Below are positions 12,507-44,666 of a stretch of 57,847 nucleotides of DNA, in pieces. Below the pieces are notes generated by a model. That model was not told where the DNA came from, did not search any database, and saw only the letters and a program-made list of their open reading frames with translations. Both the position numbers and the translations under genes were made by a program. The stretch covers positions 1 through 57,847 of the forward strand of contig NZ_SPHL01000010.1 in the NCBI RefSeq assembly GCF_005844425.1, read 5' to 3'. Source of the DNA: Anaerofustis stercorihominis. Its GTDB lineage: Bacteria; Bacillota; Clostridia; Eubacteriales; Anaerofustaceae. Numbering within the stretch: the stretch's first letter is position 1; the number at the start of each line of letters is the position of its first letter.

Positions 12507-12570
12507 TACTAGTATTTGACATATTATGTTGTCAGTGGTAAAATATTGTGAAATCAAAATAATACAAATA

Positions 12571-12656
12571 AGCTAGGGGAGCCTATGGGCTGAGAGAACT
12601 ATTCGTGTTTACCCTTACTACTTGATCCGGGTTATGCCGGCGTAAGGAAGCTAAAT
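12571..12656 (+). promoter_or_regulatory. TPP riboswitch (THI element)
   Basis: The conserved core is clear: AGGGGAGCC, GGCTGAGAG, ACCCTTAC, TTGATCCGGGTTATGCCGG and CGTAAGGAAGCT. It senses thiamine pyrophosphate and precedes the thiamine transporter gene thiT. A promoter-like ATTTGACATATTATGTTGTCAG region lies about 50 bases upstream. Confidence 0.96.
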
Positions 12657-12666
12657 ATTTTCTTAA

Positions 12667-25028: not shown

Positions 25029-25049
25029 CGGAAAGGAATGAGAAGAATT

Positions 25050-25994
25050 TTGAAAAAGGTTTCTGATGATACTAAGTTAATGGTAAAAGTATGCGATTTG
25101 TATTACAACAACGACATGAAACAAGAAGAAATTGCTTCCAAACTTTCAATATCAAGAGCGACAATATCCAGAATTTTAAAAAATGCAAAAAGTGAAGGGA
25201 TTGTCAAAATAGAAGTTATAAATCCTTTGAAAAATGATTATTACAAGCTAGAAAAACAATTAGAAGAAAAGTTTAACTTAAAAGAAGTCATAATTGCAGA
25301 AGATGTTACCGATGCTTCATATGAAAGGGATGCACTTGGTAAAGCTTGTGCTGAATTTTTACAAAGGGTTTTAAAAGATGGGGAAATTGTTGGGTTATCA
25401 ATGGGAAAAACAATAAAGACTATAGCACAATATGTTCATCAAGATAAACCAAGAGATATTTCTTTTGTTCCTCTACTTGGAGGTATGGGACAAGTTGGTA
25501 TTGAACTTCATTGTAATCAAATTGTAATCGATTTTTTTAGAGCTTTTGGAGGAGAATATCATCTTCTTCATGCACCGGCAATGATAGCGGATCCAAATTT
25601 AATGCTTAGTTTAAAAAATGATATTCATATAAAACAAGTATTTGATTTGTTGGATAAAATTACAACCGCAGTTGTTGGTATAGGTACGGCTGTTCCCGGT
25701 TCGACAATGATGGAAACGGGGTATTACAAAAAAGAAGACATTGTTGAAATGAAAAATAGCGGAATTGTGGGAGATATATGTCTTCAAATGTATGATATAG
25801 AAGGTAATACAAATTATTCGTACAATAATGATATATTCGGTATAAATTTAGAGTCATTAAAGAAAGTAAAGAGAGTTGTTGGGATAAGTGCAGGGGAAGA
25901 GAAAGTTAAGGCAATAAAGGGAGCCTTAAACGGAAAAATTGTAAATGTTCTCGTAACAAATTCAAGAACTGCAAAATTATTGCTTGAAGATTAA
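25050..25994 (+). CDS. SorC/DeoR-type sugar-phosphate-binding transcriptional regulator
   Basis: 314 residues from TTG 25050; an in-frame ATG at 25038 directly touches the AAAGGA site and is a less likely start. An N-terminal helix-turn-helix (Q-E-E-I-A-S-K-L-S-I-S-R-A-T-I-S-R-I-L) is followed by a SorC sugar-binding domain with G-L-S-M-G-K-T and V-P-L-L-G-G-M-G, typical of phosphosugar binding, and the trailing G-I-G-T-A-V-P-G. First gene of the operon with gutM, three PTS genes and an oxidoreductase, which it presumably controls in response to a phosphorylated substrate. Confidence 0.92.
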   Translation: MKKVSDDTKLMVKVCDLYYNNDMKQEEIASKLSISRATISRILKNAKSEGIVKIEVINPLKNDYYKLEKQLEEKFNLKEVIIAEDVTDASYERDALGKACAEFLQRVLKDGEIVGLSMGKTIKTIAQYVHQDKPRDISFVPLLGGMGQVGIELHCNQIVIDFFRAFGGEYHLLHAPAMIADPNLMLSLKNDIHIKQVFDLLDKITTAVVGIGTAVPGSTMMETGYYKKEDIVEMKNSGIVGDICLQMYDIEGNTNYSYNNDIFGINLESLKKVKRVVGISAGEEKVKAIKGALNGKIVNVLVTNSRTAKLLLED

Positions 25995-26008
25995 ATTGGA
26001 GGAATATT

Positions 26009-26455
26009 ATGTGGAAGATTTTTGCGGTTGCTTTTGTTCTAATGGTATTTAATTCCATATTGACCTATAGGCAGGCCAAAGATTTTACTATATCATTTAA
26101 TGAAATTCGTAAATTTGGAAATGTAAGTGTTGGTAAAGATAAACAGTATTTTATTTATGGAGTTATTTTGATTCTTGCTTGTGACAGTAATGGATATGTT
26201 ACAAAAGGTAAAATAATGAAGGGATTTAGTGTTTTTGCAAGATTTAATAATTTTGATGCTTTAAACGGAAAATCTATTTATGATTTAAAAGAAGAAGAAG
26301 AGGAGAAAATGAAAAAAATTAGAAGTAAGAGAAGAAAGAAAAAAGGAAGCTCTTTACTTCAGGCTGTAAATGGTTTAATAGGTGTTTTAGAAAAGAATAA
26401 AACTAACAATGATGAAATTGAGTTGCAGGAAGAAATAAAAAAAGTTGTTGAGTAA
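26009..26455 (+). CDS. gutM: GutM-type PTS operon activator protein
   Basis: 148 residues. An N-terminal membrane helix (M-W-K-I-F-A-V-A-F-V-L-M-V-F) and a second hydrophobic stretch near residues 50-62 match the GutM pattern, as do Y-R-Q-A-K-D-F and K-G-F-S-V-F-A-R-F. The C-terminus is a charged, lysine-rich segment. GutM accompanies glucitol-type PTS genes and acts as an accessory activator, by an unclear mechanism. It lies 14 bases after the SorC regulator gene and before EIIC. Confidence 0.85.
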   Translation: MWKIFAVAFVLMVFNSILTYRQAKDFTISFNEIRKFGNVSVGKDKQYFIYGVILILACDSNGYVTKGKIMKGFSVFARFNNFDALNGKSIYDLKEEEEEKMKKIRSKRRKKKGSSLLQAVNGLIGVLEKNKTNNDEIELQEEIKKVVE

Positions 26456-26515
26456 ATTGTATGTTAAGACAACTGTTGTCTTTCATAAATAAAAAATATA
26501 GAAAGGAGAATTTTT

Positions 26516-27043
26516 ATGGAATTCTTGACAAAACTTGCAGAAGGTTTTATCGGACTATTTAACGCAGGAGGTGAAACTTTTGTTGGATGGGTTACAGGTA
26601 TCATACCTACTCTTATCGTTTTAATTACAGCTATAAATGCTTTAATTAAGATTATCGGTGAAGAAAGAGTAGATAAAGCTATGAAAGTATTATCTAAAAG
26701 TTTTATAACGAGATATACTTTGATGCCTGTTTTAGCTATGTTTTTCTTATGTAATCCAATGGCATATTCATTTGGTCGTTTCCTAAAAGAAGAACACAAA
26801 GTTGCATTTTACGATTCTACGGTTTCATTCTGTCATCCAATAACAGGACTATTCCCTCATGCAAATGCCGGTGAATTATTTGTTTACTTAGGTATTGCAA
26901 ATGGTATTACGGCATTAGGTTTAAGTACTACACCACTTGCTTTAAGATATTTCTTGGTTGGTGTTGTCGTAATTTTAATCAGAGGTATTGTTACTGAAAG
27001 ATTATATGCAATTATGAGTAGTAAGAAAAGTGCAGATGCATAG
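26516..27043 (+). CDS. srlA: PTS glucitol/sorbitol-type EIIC component
   Basis: 175 residues, the usual size of SrlA/GutA EIIC2. It begins M-E-F-L-T-K-L-A-E-G-F-I-G-L-F-N-A-G-G-E-T-F and has at least three hydrophobic segments, with the family sequences C-N-P-M-A-Y-S-F-G-R-F-L and S-F-C-H-P-I-T-G-L-F-P-H. It forms the membrane channel with the EIIB protein encoded next. Ribosome site AAAGGAGA. Because the operon lacks a sorbitol-6-phosphate dehydrogenase, the imported polyol may not be sorbitol. Confidence 0.93.
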   Translation: MEFLTKLAEGFIGLFNAGGETFVGWVTGIIPTLIVLITAINALIKIIGEERVDKAMKVLSKSFITRYTLMPVLAMFFLCNPMAYSFGRFLKEEHKVAFYDSTVSFCHPITGLFPHANAGELFVYLGIANGITALGLSTTPLALRYFLVGVVVILIRGIVTERLYAIMSSKKSADA

Positions 27044-27057
27044 AAAGGGGAAAAGAT

Positions 27058-28044
27058 ATGAGTAATTATAAAGCAGTTAAGATCGAAAAAGGTTCTCAAG
27101 GTTGGGGTGGACCGTTAATTATTAAACCAACTGAAAAGAAAAATAAAATTGCCAGTGTTACAGGTGGTGGAATTCATCCTCTTGCACAATATATTGCAGA
27201 CTTAACGGGAGCACAAGCCGTTGATGCTTTTTCTACAGGTGTTCCTGATGAAGAAATGGCTGTGGTTATAGTTGATTGTGGTGGTACTGCAAGATGTGGT
27301 GTTTATCCTAAAAAAGGCGTATATACAATTAATCTTAATGCTGTAGGAGCTGTTGGACCACTTGCACAATATATTAAAGAAGAAATATATGTATCAGACG
27401 TAAAAGAAAATAACGTAACATTATATGAAGGAGAAGTTAGTGATGAAGAACCTTCGGCTGTTACACAAGAAGTAAAACCATCATCTAATGAAAACAACGG
27501 ACCTGAACAAAAAGGTTTAGTTGGAGTAATTGCAAAAATAGGGAAGGCAGTTGGTGGTGTTGTAAACAAATTCTTTGCAGCAGGTAGAGATGCTATTGAT
27601 ACTACAATAAGAAATATCTTACCATTTATGGCATTTGTTAGTATGCTTCTTGGTATAATTTCTGCATCAGGTATTGGGGATGTAATAGCAAAGGCGATAA
27701 GTCCTTTAGCTGGTTCTCTTCCAGGAATGATTGTTTTATCAATAATCTGTGCAATTCCATTCTTATCACCTGTTCTTGGACCAGGAGCAGTTATTGCTCA
27801 AGTAGTAGGTGTATTAGTTGGTGCTGAAATTGCAAAAGGAAGTATTCCTCCAACATATGCATTACCTGCATTATTTGCTATAGATGCTCAAGTTGGAGCA
27901 GACTTTGTTCCTGTTGGATTATCTCTTGGAGAAGCTGAACCTTCTACAGTTGAAATCGGGGTTCCCGCAATGCTATTCTCTAGACTTATTACAGGACCTA
28001 TTGCGGTTATAATCGCATACTTCTGTTCATTTGGATTATATTAA
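27058..28044 (+). CDS. srlE: PTS glucitol/sorbitol-type EIIB(C) component
   Basis: 328 residues. The N-terminal EIIB domain carries the phosphorylation motif D-C-G-G-T-A-R-C-G-V-Y-P (residues 73-84; Cys74 is the likely phospho-site). A linker rich in E, S and P (about 125-155) joins a C-terminal membrane part with about four helices (residues 185-325), including the SrlE-type S-P-V-L-G-P-G-A-V-I-A-Q. It passes phosphate from EIIA to the incoming polyol. Encoded 14 bases after EIIC, with AAAGGGG as ribosome site. Confidence 0.94.
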   Translation: MSNYKAVKIEKGSQGWGGPLIIKPTEKKNKIASVTGGGIHPLAQYIADLTGAQAVDAFSTGVPDEEMAVVIVDCGGTARCGVYPKKGVYTINLNAVGAVGPLAQYIKEEIYVSDVKENNVTLYEGEVSDEEPSAVTQEVKPSSNENNGPEQKGLVGVIAKIGKAVGGVVNKFFAAGRDAIDTTIRNILPFMAFVSMLLGIISASGIGDVIAKAISPLAGSLPGMIVLSIICAIPFLSPVLGPGAVIAQVVGVLVGAEIAKGSIPPTYALPALFAIDAQVGADFVPVGLSLGEAEPSTVEIGVPAMLFSRLITGPIAVIIAYFCSFGLY

Positions 28045-28082
28045 TAGACATAAAAAATTAAAACGTAAGGAAAGTACATAAT

Positions 28083-28454
28083 ATGAATTATATATCAAAA
28101 ATAACCGGATTTGGCGACATGGCTTTAGATTTTTTACAAGAAAATATGCTTATACTGTTTAATGATGATGCTCCAGTTGAACTTGCGGAACTGTCAGTTT
28201 TACATGAAAAGCAAGAATTAACAAGGGATGTTTGTGTGGGAGACATTATTTCTCTTGGTGAAGATGATTATCTTGTTACTGCTGTAGGCTCAGAAGCAAA
28301 AGAAACCTTAAAGATGTTGGGACATTGTTGTTTGGTATTTGGAGGCAAAGACAGCGTAGATCTTCCCGGACAAATCCAATTAAAAGGTGATAAACTTCCA
28401 GATTTAAAAGTGGGAGATTATATTAAAATACAATTTTTAGGAGGAAATGAATAA
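28083..28454 (+). CDS. srlB: PTS glucitol/sorbitol-type EIIA component
   Basis: 123 residues, the size of SrlB/GutB. Aligned by eye with E. coli SrlB, the active histidine falls at H41 (S-V-L-H-E-K-Q-E-L). The V-T-A-V-G-S-E-A-K-E-T-L-K-M-L-G-H block is also conserved. It accepts phosphate from HPr (a ptsH gene lies at 51594 in this window) and hands it to EIIB. Its TAA stop overlaps the ATG of the next gene (TAATG), indicating translational coupling with the oxidoreductase. Confidence 0.93.
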   Translation: MNYISKITGFGDMALDFLQENMLILFNDDAPVELAELSVLHEKQELTRDVCVGDIISLGEDDYLVTAVGSEAKETLKMLGHCCLVFGGKDSVDLPGQIQLKGDKLPDLKVGDYIKIQFLGGNE

Positions 28455-29752
28455 TGTTAAGAATGAATTACAAATTAGCAGAGCTAGAAGAAAAAAATGC
28501 TCCTATTATGACCAGTATAATAGGAGCAGGACAAATGGGCAGGGGCATGACCAGTCAAATGATCAGGATGAAAGGTATGAAGCCCGCAATTGTTGCTGAC
28601 ATTAATATAGATAATGTCATTGCCGCATTTGAAAACTCTGGATTAACCAAAGATGATTATATTATAACAAATAAATTAAGCGAAGCCAATGCATATCTTG
28701 AAAAAGGTAAATATATTGCAACAGAAAATTCAGAGCTTGGTGCAAAAGCAAACCTTATTCAAGCTGCTGTTGATGCTACAGGGGTTCCTGAAGTAGGGGC
28801 AAGAGTTGCAATTGATGCTATAAACGAAGGTAAACATATTTGTATGTTAAATGTTGAAACTGATGTTGTTATTGGACCTATGCTTAAAAAATTAGCTGAT
28901 AATGCAGGTGTAATTTATACAGGCAGTGCAGGGGATGAACCTGGTGCGGTTAAAGAATTATATGATTTTGCAACAGCTGCCGGATTTGATGTAAGAGTTA
29001 TTGGTAAAGGTAAAAACAATAAAATCGACTATGATGCAAATCCTACAACATTAGCTGAATATGCAGCTAAGAGAGGCGTTAGTCCTAAGATGCAAACAGC
29101 ATTTACAGACGGAACAAAAACAATGGTAGAACTTACAGCTATGGCTAATGCAACAGGATTTATCCCTGATATCAGAGGAGGTCATGGACCTGAAGCTGAA
29201 GTAAATGATTTACCTAATTTGTTTAGACCTACTGAAGAAGGTGGTATTCTTCAAAATGGATACGGAAAAGTTGAATGGGTAAATGGTATTGCTCCTGGTG
29301 TATTTGTAATCATTTCAAGCGATCTTCCTTTTGTTAAACATGAAATGAATTACCTAAGCATGGGCGAAGGTCCTAACTGGGTATTATATAGACCTTATCA
29401 TTTATGTTCTTTGGAAACACCTCTAACAGTAGCAAAAGCAGTTGTTGACAATACTTCAACATTAGTTCCTATGGACGGTGGATTAGTTTGTGAAACAGTA
29501 GCAGTTGCTAAAAAAGATTTAAAAGCAGGCGAAATGCTTGACGGTATTGGTGGATATACTGTATATGGTGTTGTTGATACACACGAAAATATGCTTAAAG
29601 ATAACGGAGTTCCTTTGGGAGTTATTACAAAGAATACAAAACTTCTTAAAGATGTTAAAAAAGGTCAAACAATCACATATGATATGGTTGATTTAGATGA
29701 TAATTCATTAATTGTACAGCTTAGAAAACTACAAGATAGATTTTTCGGATAA
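28454..29752 (+). CDS. Homoserine-dehydrogenase-like oxidoreductase with C-terminal SAF domain (COG4091 type)
   Basis: 432 residues. The N-terminal Rossmann fold has I-I-G-A-G-Q-M-G-R-G-M (residues 22-32), then A-T-G-V-P-E-V-G-A-R-V-A and N-V-E-T-D-V-V-I-G-P near residues 110-140, as in homoserine-dehydrogenase-like enzymes. The final 90 residues form an SAF domain (V-A-K-K-D-L-K-A-G-E ... L-G-V-I-T-K-N-T-K-L-L). I know of no firmly assigned reaction for the family. Coupled to EIIA at the end of a glucitol-type PTS operon, it is placed where sorbitol-6-phosphate dehydrogenase would normally be, so it probably oxidises or rearranges the imported polyol phosphate (inference). Confidence 0.85.
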   Translation: MLRMNYKLAELEEKNAPIMTSIIGAGQMGRGMTSQMIRMKGMKPAIVADINIDNVIAAFENSGLTKDDYIITNKLSEANAYLEKGKYIATENSELGAKANLIQAAVDATGVPEVGARVAIDAINEGKHICMLNVETDVVIGPMLKKLADNAGVIYTGSAGDEPGAVKELYDFATAAGFDVRVIGKGKNNKIDYDANPTTLAEYAAKRGVSPKMQTAFTDGTKTMVELTAMANATGFIPDIRGGHGPEAEVNDLPNLFRPTEEGGILQNGYGKVEWVNGIAPGVFVIISSDLPFVKHEMNYLSMGEGPNWVLYRPYHLCSLETPLTVAKAVVDNTSTLVPMDGGLVCETVAVAKKDLKAGEMLDGIGGYTVYGVVDTHENMLKDNGVPLGVITKNTKLLKDVKKGQTITYDMVDLDDNSLIVQLRKLQDRFFG

Positions 29753-32677: not shown

Positions 32678-32706
32678 TTGACAAAACATAATTACCATGT
32701 TAATAT
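32678..32706 (+). promoter_or_regulatory. Promoter of the RubisCO-like gene
   Basis: TTGACA (32678-32683), 17-base spacer, TAATAT (32701-32706). It leaves a leader of about 85 bases with a weak TTTAAG/CTTAAA inverted repeat before the AAGGAGG ribosome site. Confidence 0.7.
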
Positions 32707-32797
32707 AAAAGCGTAAAGACAGGACTATGTTTATAAAGTTGTTTTTACATTTAAGGGTAGACGGTTAAATACTTAAAGTTTAAGGAGGATTTTTATA

Positions 32798-34126
32798 ATG
32801 AAACAAAAATATAACCCTTTGATGTTCCAATGTAGTGAAAGTTTAGATATGAGCAAATATATTGTTGCTACATATTATATGAGAGGTAAAGGAAATAATC
32901 CTATGGAACTTGACCTTGCCAAATTTGCAGAATCAATAGCTGCAGAACAAGCAACAGGTACATGGATTGATGTTCCTTTTGAAACAGATGACATTGTTGA
33001 AAGACATGCTGCAAAAGTTATTGGTATTTATGAAACACCTGCTTATGACAGAGAACTTCCTGACGGAATACAATACAGAGATATGATAGTTAGACTTGCT
33101 TTCCCTTGGGAAAACATAGGAACTAACTTCCCAATGATTTTTACAACTGCAATAGGTAATATTTCTGCTGCAAGATTAAAGCTTGTAGACCTTGAATTCC
33201 CTAAAGAATATACAGACCATTTCCAAGGCCCAAAATTTGGTATAAAAGGCGTAAGAGAAATTCTTGATATTCCTGAAAGACCACTTACTTGTGCAATGAT
33301 TAAACCTGATACAGGTTGGACTCCTGAACAAGGTGCAATAATGGCAGGAGATGCTTATGTTGGCGGTATTGACGTAATAAAAGATGATGAACTTCTTGTT
33401 GCGGATCCTGCATGGTGCCCTATTGAAAAAAGAGTTAAAGCAATAACAGAAGCAGGTCTAAAAGCTTATGAACAAACAGGTGAAAAACATTTATATACTG
33501 TTAACTTAACAGAAGACAGCTTTAAGATTAAAGACCTTGCATACAGAGCTTTAGATGCAGGTGCAAATGCTTTAATGATTAATACATATACAGCAGGTTT
33601 CTCAGCTCTTAGAATGTTAGCTGAAGACCCTAATATTCAAGTTCCTATTATGTCACATCCTGACTATGCAGCAGCACAATCTTACTCTCCTGATACAGGT
33701 GTTGCCGTAGCATTACTTTGGGGTAAACTTGTAAGACTTGCCGGAGCTGATATGGCAATAACAACAAACTATTATGGTAAGATTCCTGTACTTAGAGATT
33801 CTTACTTAAGAACTTGTAGAGATCTTAAGATGAAATTCCATAATATTAAAGATTGTCTTCCTGCACCAAGCGGTGGAATGTATCAAGGTGTTGTTCCAGA
33901 AACAATTTATGAAGTTGGTACTGATGTTATGATTGCAGCAGGCGGTGCTGTTCATGGACACAGAAACGGTGCTACAGCAGGTGCAAGATCTCTAAGACAA
34001 GCAATTGATGCTGCTATGGCTGGTATTTCATTAAGAGAATATGCAAAAGATAAACCGGATCTTCAAATCGCTCTTGATGATTGGGGATGTGGTGAAAAAG
34101 AAGATTTATTTGATATGAAAAAATAA
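32798..34126 (+). CDS. RubisCO-like protein (large-subunit superfamily), function unassigned
   Basis: 442 residues with the N-terminal alpha/beta domain and the C-terminal TIM barrel of the RubisCO large-subunit superfamily. By-eye correspondences to spinach numbering: E50 (E60), T55 (T65), N121 (N123), K169 in I-K-P-D-T-G-W (K175), K195/D197/E198 in G-G-I-D-V-I-K-D-D-E (K201/D203/E204), H287 (H294), K328 (loop-6 K334), S358-G-G (S379) and G382-G383 (phosphate site). R295 and H327 seem replaced. Enolase-type MtnW usually lacks the loop-6 lysine, so this may be a decarboxylase/transcarboxylase-type form IV protein; that is inference. It is monocistronic, with its own promoter and terminator. 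No methionine-salvage genes are nearby. Confidence 0.9.
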   Translation: MKQKYNPLMFQCSESLDMSKYIVATYYMRGKGNNPMELDLAKFAESIAAEQATGTWIDVPFETDDIVERHAAKVIGIYETPAYDRELPDGIQYRDMIVRLAFPWENIGTNFPMIFTTAIGNISAARLKLVDLEFPKEYTDHFQGPKFGIKGVREILDIPERPLTCAMIKPDTGWTPEQGAIMAGDAYVGGIDVIKDDELLVADPAWCPIEKRVKAITEAGLKAYEQTGEKHLYTVNLTEDSFKIKDLAYRALDAGANALMINTYTAGFSALRMLAEDPNIQVPIMSHPDYAAAQSYSPDTGVAVALLWGKLVRLAGADMAITTNYYGKIPVLRDSYLRTCRDLKMKFHNIKDCLPAPSGGMYQGVVPETIYEVGTDVMIAAGGAVHGHRNGATAGARSLRQAIDAAMAGISLREYAKDKPDLQIALDDWGCGEKEDLFDMKK

Positions 34127-34183: not shown

Positions 34184-34215
34184 ACCCCCAACTATCGTTG
34201 GGGGTTGTTTTTTTA
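34184..34215 (+). terminator. Strong terminator of the RubisCO-like gene
   Basis: ACCCCCAAC / GTTGGGGGT hairpin with TATC loop and T run. Confidence 0.92.
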
Positions 34216-44453: not shown

Positions 44454-44516
44454 ATTTTAAATAATCTCCTTAAAAATAATTGTTGTGTGATTTTTAAGTT
44501 TTAGCTTAAATTTGTC

Positions 44517-44666
44517 CTTAAAATTACTTTTAAGTTTTGTTAAGCATTAAGGAATAACTTTTAAATCCCAAAGGGTATCCGCCGAAATTTCGATAAACCC
44601 TTTACCTCGTCAACCTTAAAATTTTATTTAGGAATTCGGTTCGGGCGCTTTAACTAAAAATTCCTA
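44517..44666 (-). promoter_or_regulatory. glmS ribozyme/riboswitch
   Basis: On the minus strand the core AGCGCCCGAAC, GTTGACGAGG, GGGTTTATCGA, TTTCGGCGGAT and ACCC appears in canonical order, with an AGGAATT/AATTCCT stem around the start. Predicted self-cleavage lies between A at 44649 and G at 44648, activated by glucosamine-6-phosphate. The 3' part (P3-P4 region) is AT-rich. It starts about 195 bases upstream of the glmS ATG. Confidence 0.95.

Follow-up and report, generated by a model that had tools for sequence, protein, structure and literature searches.

The window, as we call the whole 57,847-nucleotide stretch of Anaerofustis stercorihominis DNA that was analysed, carries a gene for a RubisCO-like protein (RLP), preceded by an AAGGAGG ribosome-binding site. 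The coordinates of the gene and of the other features mentioned below are collected in Table 1. The predicted promoter of the RLP gene is common to three Anaerofustis species (that of the window and two congeners). In the leader that follows it, the blocks GCGTAAAGACAGGAnTATGTTT and AAGGGTAGAYGGTTAAA are kept across the same three species, and GCGTAAAGACAGGAnTATGTTT occurs only once in the genome. A riboswitch in the leader was considered and is not supported; no Rfam family matched positions 32707-32797 at threshold, and no strong fold was found there. The gene ends in an intrinsic terminator and is monocistronic in all three species, in agreement with the original prediction, which had described a single gene with its own promoter and terminator. 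Its flanks in Anaerofustis, named from sequence, are a polysaccharide deacetylase gene and ylxM-ffh-rpsP, and no pathway gene linked to the RLP gene was found at the locus.

Table 1. Positions of the RLP gene with its signals and active-site codons, and of other features mentioned in the text (window coordinates unless a locus is named; RubisCO numbering in brackets).
Feature	Position	Strand	Basis
Predicted promoter, sigma-70-type, TTGACA-N17-TAATAT with TG before the second hexamer	32678..32706	+	Pattern match and conservation
5' leader, ~85-90 nt	32707..32797	+	Blocks with full or near identity across three Anaerofustis species
RLP coding sequence, 442 aa	32798..34126	+	Open reading frame, ATG start, Pfam matches
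Codon E50 (E60)	32945..32947	+	
Codon N121 (N123; K in MtnW)	33158..33160	+	
Codon K169 (K175)	33302..33304	+	
Codons K195-D196-D197-E198 (K201 carbamate; D203, E204 metal ligands)	33380..33391	+	
Codons H287 (H294) and P288 (at R295)	33656..33661	+	
Codon K328 (loop-6 lysine, K334; S/T in MtnW)	33779..33781	+	
Intrinsic terminator stem-loop, 9-bp stem, then T-run TGTTTTTTTA	34184..34205	+	Sequence
TPP riboswitch	12565..12665	+	Above Rfam threshold
Apparent SorC and glucitol-type PTS operon	25038..29752		Sequence reading
glmS ribozyme	44493..44660	-	Above Rfam threshold
Second RLP, 43% identical to the window RLP	L033 9667..10998, genome contig C37	-	
Palindromes like GTGCATATATGCAC	L022 6862..6976; L023 8268..8350		
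Distant RLPs with KDDH	L092 5626..6780; L093 5026..6156	-	

Elsewhere in the window, an apparent operon is read from its sequence as a SorC regulator, a glucitol-type PTS and an NAD-binding SAF-domain-like oxidoreductase. It has no obvious sorbitol-6-phosphate dehydrogenase, and the oxidoreductase stands in its place. The SorC gene at 25038 was considered as a regulator of the RLP gene and set aside, since its identity to RLP-linked SorC genes is no more than 24-31% and it sits in an apparent sorbitol PTS operon. The TPP riboswitch and the glmS ribozyme, the latter upstream of a glmS-like gene, are ordinary.

The window protein matches the Pfam families RuBisCO_large (E=9e-46) and RuBisCO_large_N (9e-9), both domains at full length. 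Its residues were compared with those of RubisCO in an alignment of 91 RuBisCO-superfamily proteins, comprising the window protein, relatives found in some 900 genomes of Bacillota, MtnW and form I-III sequences, and RLPs with a link to acid sugar kinases. The alignment bore out every retained residue named in the original prediction: E60 (E50 in the window protein), T65 (T55), N123 (N121), K175 (K169), K201 (K195), D203 (D197), E204 (E198), H294 (H287), K334 (K328), and S379 (S358). The changes it had proposed at R295 (now P288) and H327 (now I321) are equally correct. Further retained positions are W66 (W56), P176 (P170), and the glycines G380, G381, G403, and G404 (G359, G360, G382, and G383), and further changes affect K177 (D171) and H298 (alanine). 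Given the two full-length Pfam domains, a position outside forms I-III in the tree described below, and the replacements R295 to P, H327 to I, and K177 to D, the open reading frame is a genuine form IV RLP.

The original prediction depended in particular on the loop-6 lysine being equivalent to K334, and a profile-profile alignment (hhalign) of the window group against forms I-III supports this with probability 100 and E=4e-72. It pairs '..YYGK' of the window group with '..AVGK' of forms I-III, which places the lysine on K334; D324 and K334 are equally far apart in both groups, with no gap between them. If loop 6 is correctly registered, E60 and K334 are expected to covary. This is what we observed: 62 sequences combine E and K at these positions, and K334 is present in 0/21 sequences with G60. 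By the usual assignment of phosphate-binding residues in RubisCO structures, the phosphate-1 (P1) site is kept in the window protein (T55, W56, G360, G382, and G383) and the phosphate-2 (P2) site is lost through the changes at R295 and H327. An AlphaFold model from the single window sequence reached a pLDDT of 34, and no inference was drawn from it.

The original prediction also implied that such a residue set is rare, and this did not hold. Among 59 Bacillota relatives (the window group and its kin, 32-94% identity), E60 and K334 are each present in 50, N123 in 58, and the carbamate/metal triad in all 59, and the sites of R295 and H327 are never occupied by R or H (0/59). One relative, from A. 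stercorihominis DSM 28733, is 93% identical to the window RLP over the whole protein. A scan of genome contigs with the single window protein gave the congener as its sole match, and no RLP relatives were found in the viral contigs scanned. The same genome encodes a second RLP on another contig, adjoined by a divergent SorC regulator and a deoC gene. This paralog groups at 100/100 with the RLPs linked to polyol kinases or PTS (types B and C below). Nearly all of the residues are thus kept across a large Bacillota family and in the paralog. The window RLP is no isolated oddity; it belongs to a wider family, which forms an uncharacterised branch within a known superfamily.

A maximum-likelihood tree of 51 rows (support given as ultrafast bootstrap / SH-aLRT) separated a superclade of 43 window-type and MtnW sequences from forms I-III and the acid-sugar-kinase RLPs (100/100). 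Inside the superclade, MtnW forms its own 100/100 clade, and the window RLP forms another (100/99) together with the congener's RLP and two order-level orthologs at 67% identity; the backbone between the two clades is unresolved. A larger quick tree likewise separates the window RLP from MtnW. MtnW is one branch of the window-type superclade, and the window RLP lies outside that branch.

That the window RLP could be the DK-MTP-1-P enolase (MtnW) of methionine salvage, a function the original prediction had discounted, is hardly credible in view of this placement and of the residues. MtnW proteins are its best solved relatives and MtnW-type models its best NCBIfam matches, and the two share the superclade, the carbamate/metal triad, K175, H294, the P1 site, and the loss of R295 and H327. 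However, the NCBIfam scores fall under the curated cut-offs (350 vs. 409 bits and 302 vs. 513.6 bits). All 13 MtnW sequences have G60, K123, G/S/A176, and S/T334, so that MtnW has lost several active-site residues including the loop-6 lysine, as originally stated. The G60, K123, G176, and S334 of MtnW are not found in the window RLP, which has E, N, P, and K at these positions and G where MtnW has A380. No methionine-salvage gene and no methylsulfurylase-type cupin gene adjoins the window RLP gene; the former had been noticed in the original prediction and extends to MtnA genome-wide.

Neither MtnW nor the DeepYkr isomerase has a substrate unless MtnA is there to make it. MtnA was absent from all five genomes of the window lineage (the window genome, two congeners, and two others), and the same search was positive in 7 related genomes, of 12 searched, and in 9 of 14 controls. 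This result also bears on a second reading, in which the window RLP would serve the MTA-isoprenoid shunt as a 5-methylthioribulose-1-phosphate (MTRu-1-P) 1,3-isomerase, as the DeepYkr RLP1 of R. rubrum and R. palustris is known to do (PMC5893883). The window RLP lies outside MtnW and inside the superclade that contains it, where a 'deep Ykr' protein is expected. The two RLP1 proteins, which were not among the 51 rows of the tree, probably belong to the same deep region, and their reaction class equals the one we favour for the window RLP below. We nevertheless regard this function as improbable, since the maker of MTRu-1-P is missing from 5/5 genomes of the lineage, and neither the cupin nor mtn genes lie beside the RLP gene.

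The absence of MtnA, together with a PRK-family match that is only weak, leaves methionine salvage and a route through RuBP both poorly supported. It is very unlikely that the protein is a true, if poor, RubisCO acting on RuBP from a pentose-bisphosphate-type route. Nearly all catalytic residues are present, and form III RubisCO (PDB 2cwx, 6hun) shares with the window RLP E60, T65, W66, N123, K175, the triad, H294, K334, S379, and the glycines. In contrast, R295, H327, K177, and H298 are changed in the window protein, and the loss of R295 and H327, the P2-phosphate residues, argues against a bisphosphate such as RuBP. The form III profile scores 264 bits against a cut-off of 497, and forms I-III make up a separate 100/100 clade. 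The genome's sole PRK-family protein matches weakly, in a large frame of 553 codons, and we take it to be a nucleoside kinase-type protein. No eIF2B-type isomerase was found in the genome by the MtnA search, which is expected to see ribose-1,5-bisphosphate isomerase-like proteins as well.

RLPs that act as decarboxylases, transcarboxylases, or oxygenases exist and provide a precedent for a further function (PMC10176493), in which the window RLP would act on a 3-oxo sugar-acid phosphate in the manner of OiaX, OiaT, or the hamamelose-pathway RLP. The window RLP resembles RLPs paired with four-carbon acid sugar kinases in having K334 and N123, and it shares K334, K175, the triad, and H294 with OiaX and the acid-sugar-kinase RLPs (e.g., PDB 3nwr). 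Unlike the window RLP, the latter two retain R295 and (H/Q)327 and have F66, and most of them have a four-carbon acid sugar kinase as partner. In the tree, the acid-sugar-kinase RLPs fall on the side of forms I-III as a 100/100 clade of their own. The OiaX profile gives the window RLP 210 bits against a cut-off of 700, no acid-sugar kinase (cl34) adjoins the window gene or any of the 59 relatives, and the strictly anaerobic life of the organism makes an oxygenase improbable. The operons of the relatives, moreover, suggest breakdown of sugar alcohols and not decarboxylation of sugar acids. We consider this function unlikely.

As none of the three Anaerofustis species has the window gene in an operon, its pathway was inferred from relatives at 40-67% identity. 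An FGGY kinase or a galactitol-type PTS was encoded within 7 genes of the RLP in 24 of the 59 relatives, compared with 0 of the 18 loci of MtnW and forms I-III that served as reference. For SorC-type regulators with a sugar-binding domain the corresponding counts were 20/59 and 0/18. These counts treat related loci as independent, which makes p-values no more than a rough guide. In type B operons the RLP is accompanied by an FGGY kinase, oxidoreductases like GlpA and GlpB, DUF1667, and in most cases a SorC regulator. Type C operons have a galactitol-type PTS and SorC, most of them also a zinc dehydrogenase and/or a class II aldolase, and at one PTS-type locus the class II aldolase is of another, FBA/GatY-like kind. 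Across the relatives, GlpA-like FAD dehydrogenases, zinc alcohol dehydrogenases, and class II aldolases are recurrent neighbours. Type A operons contain UPF0261, two PEP-hydrolase-like proteins, ComB, and GlpP, and those of types D and E, whose RLPs have lost E60 and K334, contain TIM, RpiB, and often an aldolase or UPF0261. Because operon types differ among subclades, one of them being marked by UPF0261, PEP-hydrolase-like proteins, and ComB, a single substrate cannot fit them all.

Conserved clusters with the RLP beside UPF0261, two PEP-hydrolase-like TIM barrels, and a homolog of 2-phosphosulfolactate phosphatase, were seen at loci L053, L055, L057-L059, L061, L064, L067, and L070, and smaller or partial ones at L054, L056, and L060.

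The nearest orthologs beyond the genus, at 67% identity, adjoin a PAS/sigma-54 activator and have zinc dehydrogenases nearby, and one of them is preceded by a textbook -24/-12 site, TGGCACG-N4-TTGCA. Activator and predicted site would fit an inducible catabolic gene. Palindromes like GTGCATATATGCAC upstream of two RLP genes adjoining the sigma-54 activator are possible activator-binding sites. The zinc dehydrogenase family is large, with 12 copies in the window genome, so its adjacency to RLPs is weak evidence, and a link of the RLP to one specific zinc dehydrogenase was downgraded for the same reason. The genome holds a separate operon of Gat-PTS, zinc dehydrogenase, and class II aldolase genes, with no RLP gene in it. 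In the congener A. butyriciformans, Biolog tests are positive with adonitol (ribitol), D-arabitol, dulcitol, erythritol, and sorbitol (PMC12029686). This operon and the Biolog results are compatible with a polyol link but are no proof of it.

With about even confidence, we propose from residues and operon context that the window RLP catalyses carbamate-Mg-dependent enolisation and reprotonation of a polyol-derived ketose monophosphate, acting as an isomerase or epimerase. In RubisCO, a carbamylated lysine and Mg2+ remove the C3 proton of the bound ketose phosphate to yield an enediolate. The window enzyme would run this first half-reaction. K195 would be carbamylated and bind Mg2+ together with D197 and E198, and the P1 site would hold a ketose carrying one phosphate. 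Deprotonation at C3 would give the 2,3-enediolate, which would then be reprotonated on the other carbon. The net reaction would be an isomerisation or epimerisation (carbonyl transposition) of a sugar-alcohol-derived ketose monophosphate, and the product would pass to an aldolase or to the pentose-phosphate pathway.

Several observations argue for such an isomerase. The triad, H294, K175, and the P1-site residues are all retained, and a DeepYkr-clade RLP is a proven 1,3-isomerase of a ketose-1-phosphate (PMC5893883). RLPs diverge in the step after the enediolate (PMC10176493), and reprotonation is the simplest outcome given that polyol kinases or PTS, along with dehydrogenases and aldolases and with sugar-binding regulators, surround the relatives. 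As in MtnW, whose substrate is a 1-phosphate (PMC6302742), P1 is kept and P2 is lost, so a monophosphate substrate is expected. The original prediction had left the reaction open between an enolisation and a carboxylation or decarboxylation of a phosphorylated substrate; enolisation stands as the best reading, and CO2 chemistry is no better supported than isomerisation. K334, which RubisCO uses in carboxylation, is not obviously needed in a simple isomerisation and speaks against the isomerase. A carboxylation-type reading is unsupported but has an outside chance: the E60-N123-K334 set would be functional, and CO2 would be added to, removed from, or transferred on the enediolate of a ketose monophosphate other than RuBP. 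If so, RubisCO-like carboxylation or transcarboxylation would serve sugar-alcohol metabolism in gut anaerobes, and MtnW would have lost the E60-N123-K334 set within the branch of the window RLP.

Only a handful of RLPs have a known function (PMC10176493). The large Bacillota group described here keeps residues usually said to separate RubisCO from RLPs, has no second phosphate pocket, and is tied to polyol operons in several subclades. These ties yield a short, testable substrate list: the ketose monophosphates from erythritol, ribitol, arabitol, and galactitol. The order of losses that led from RubisCO-like active sites to MtnW also becomes testable, as E60 and K334 vanish together and K at position 123 is found only in MtnW.

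A distant RLP group of about 380 amino acids was also seen (loci L092 and L093), in which KDDH replaces KDDE, so that the metal ligand E204 is H, and in which the TGTW phosphate loop is missing. Several more matches from class and phylum searches, 30-34% identical, are of similar length.
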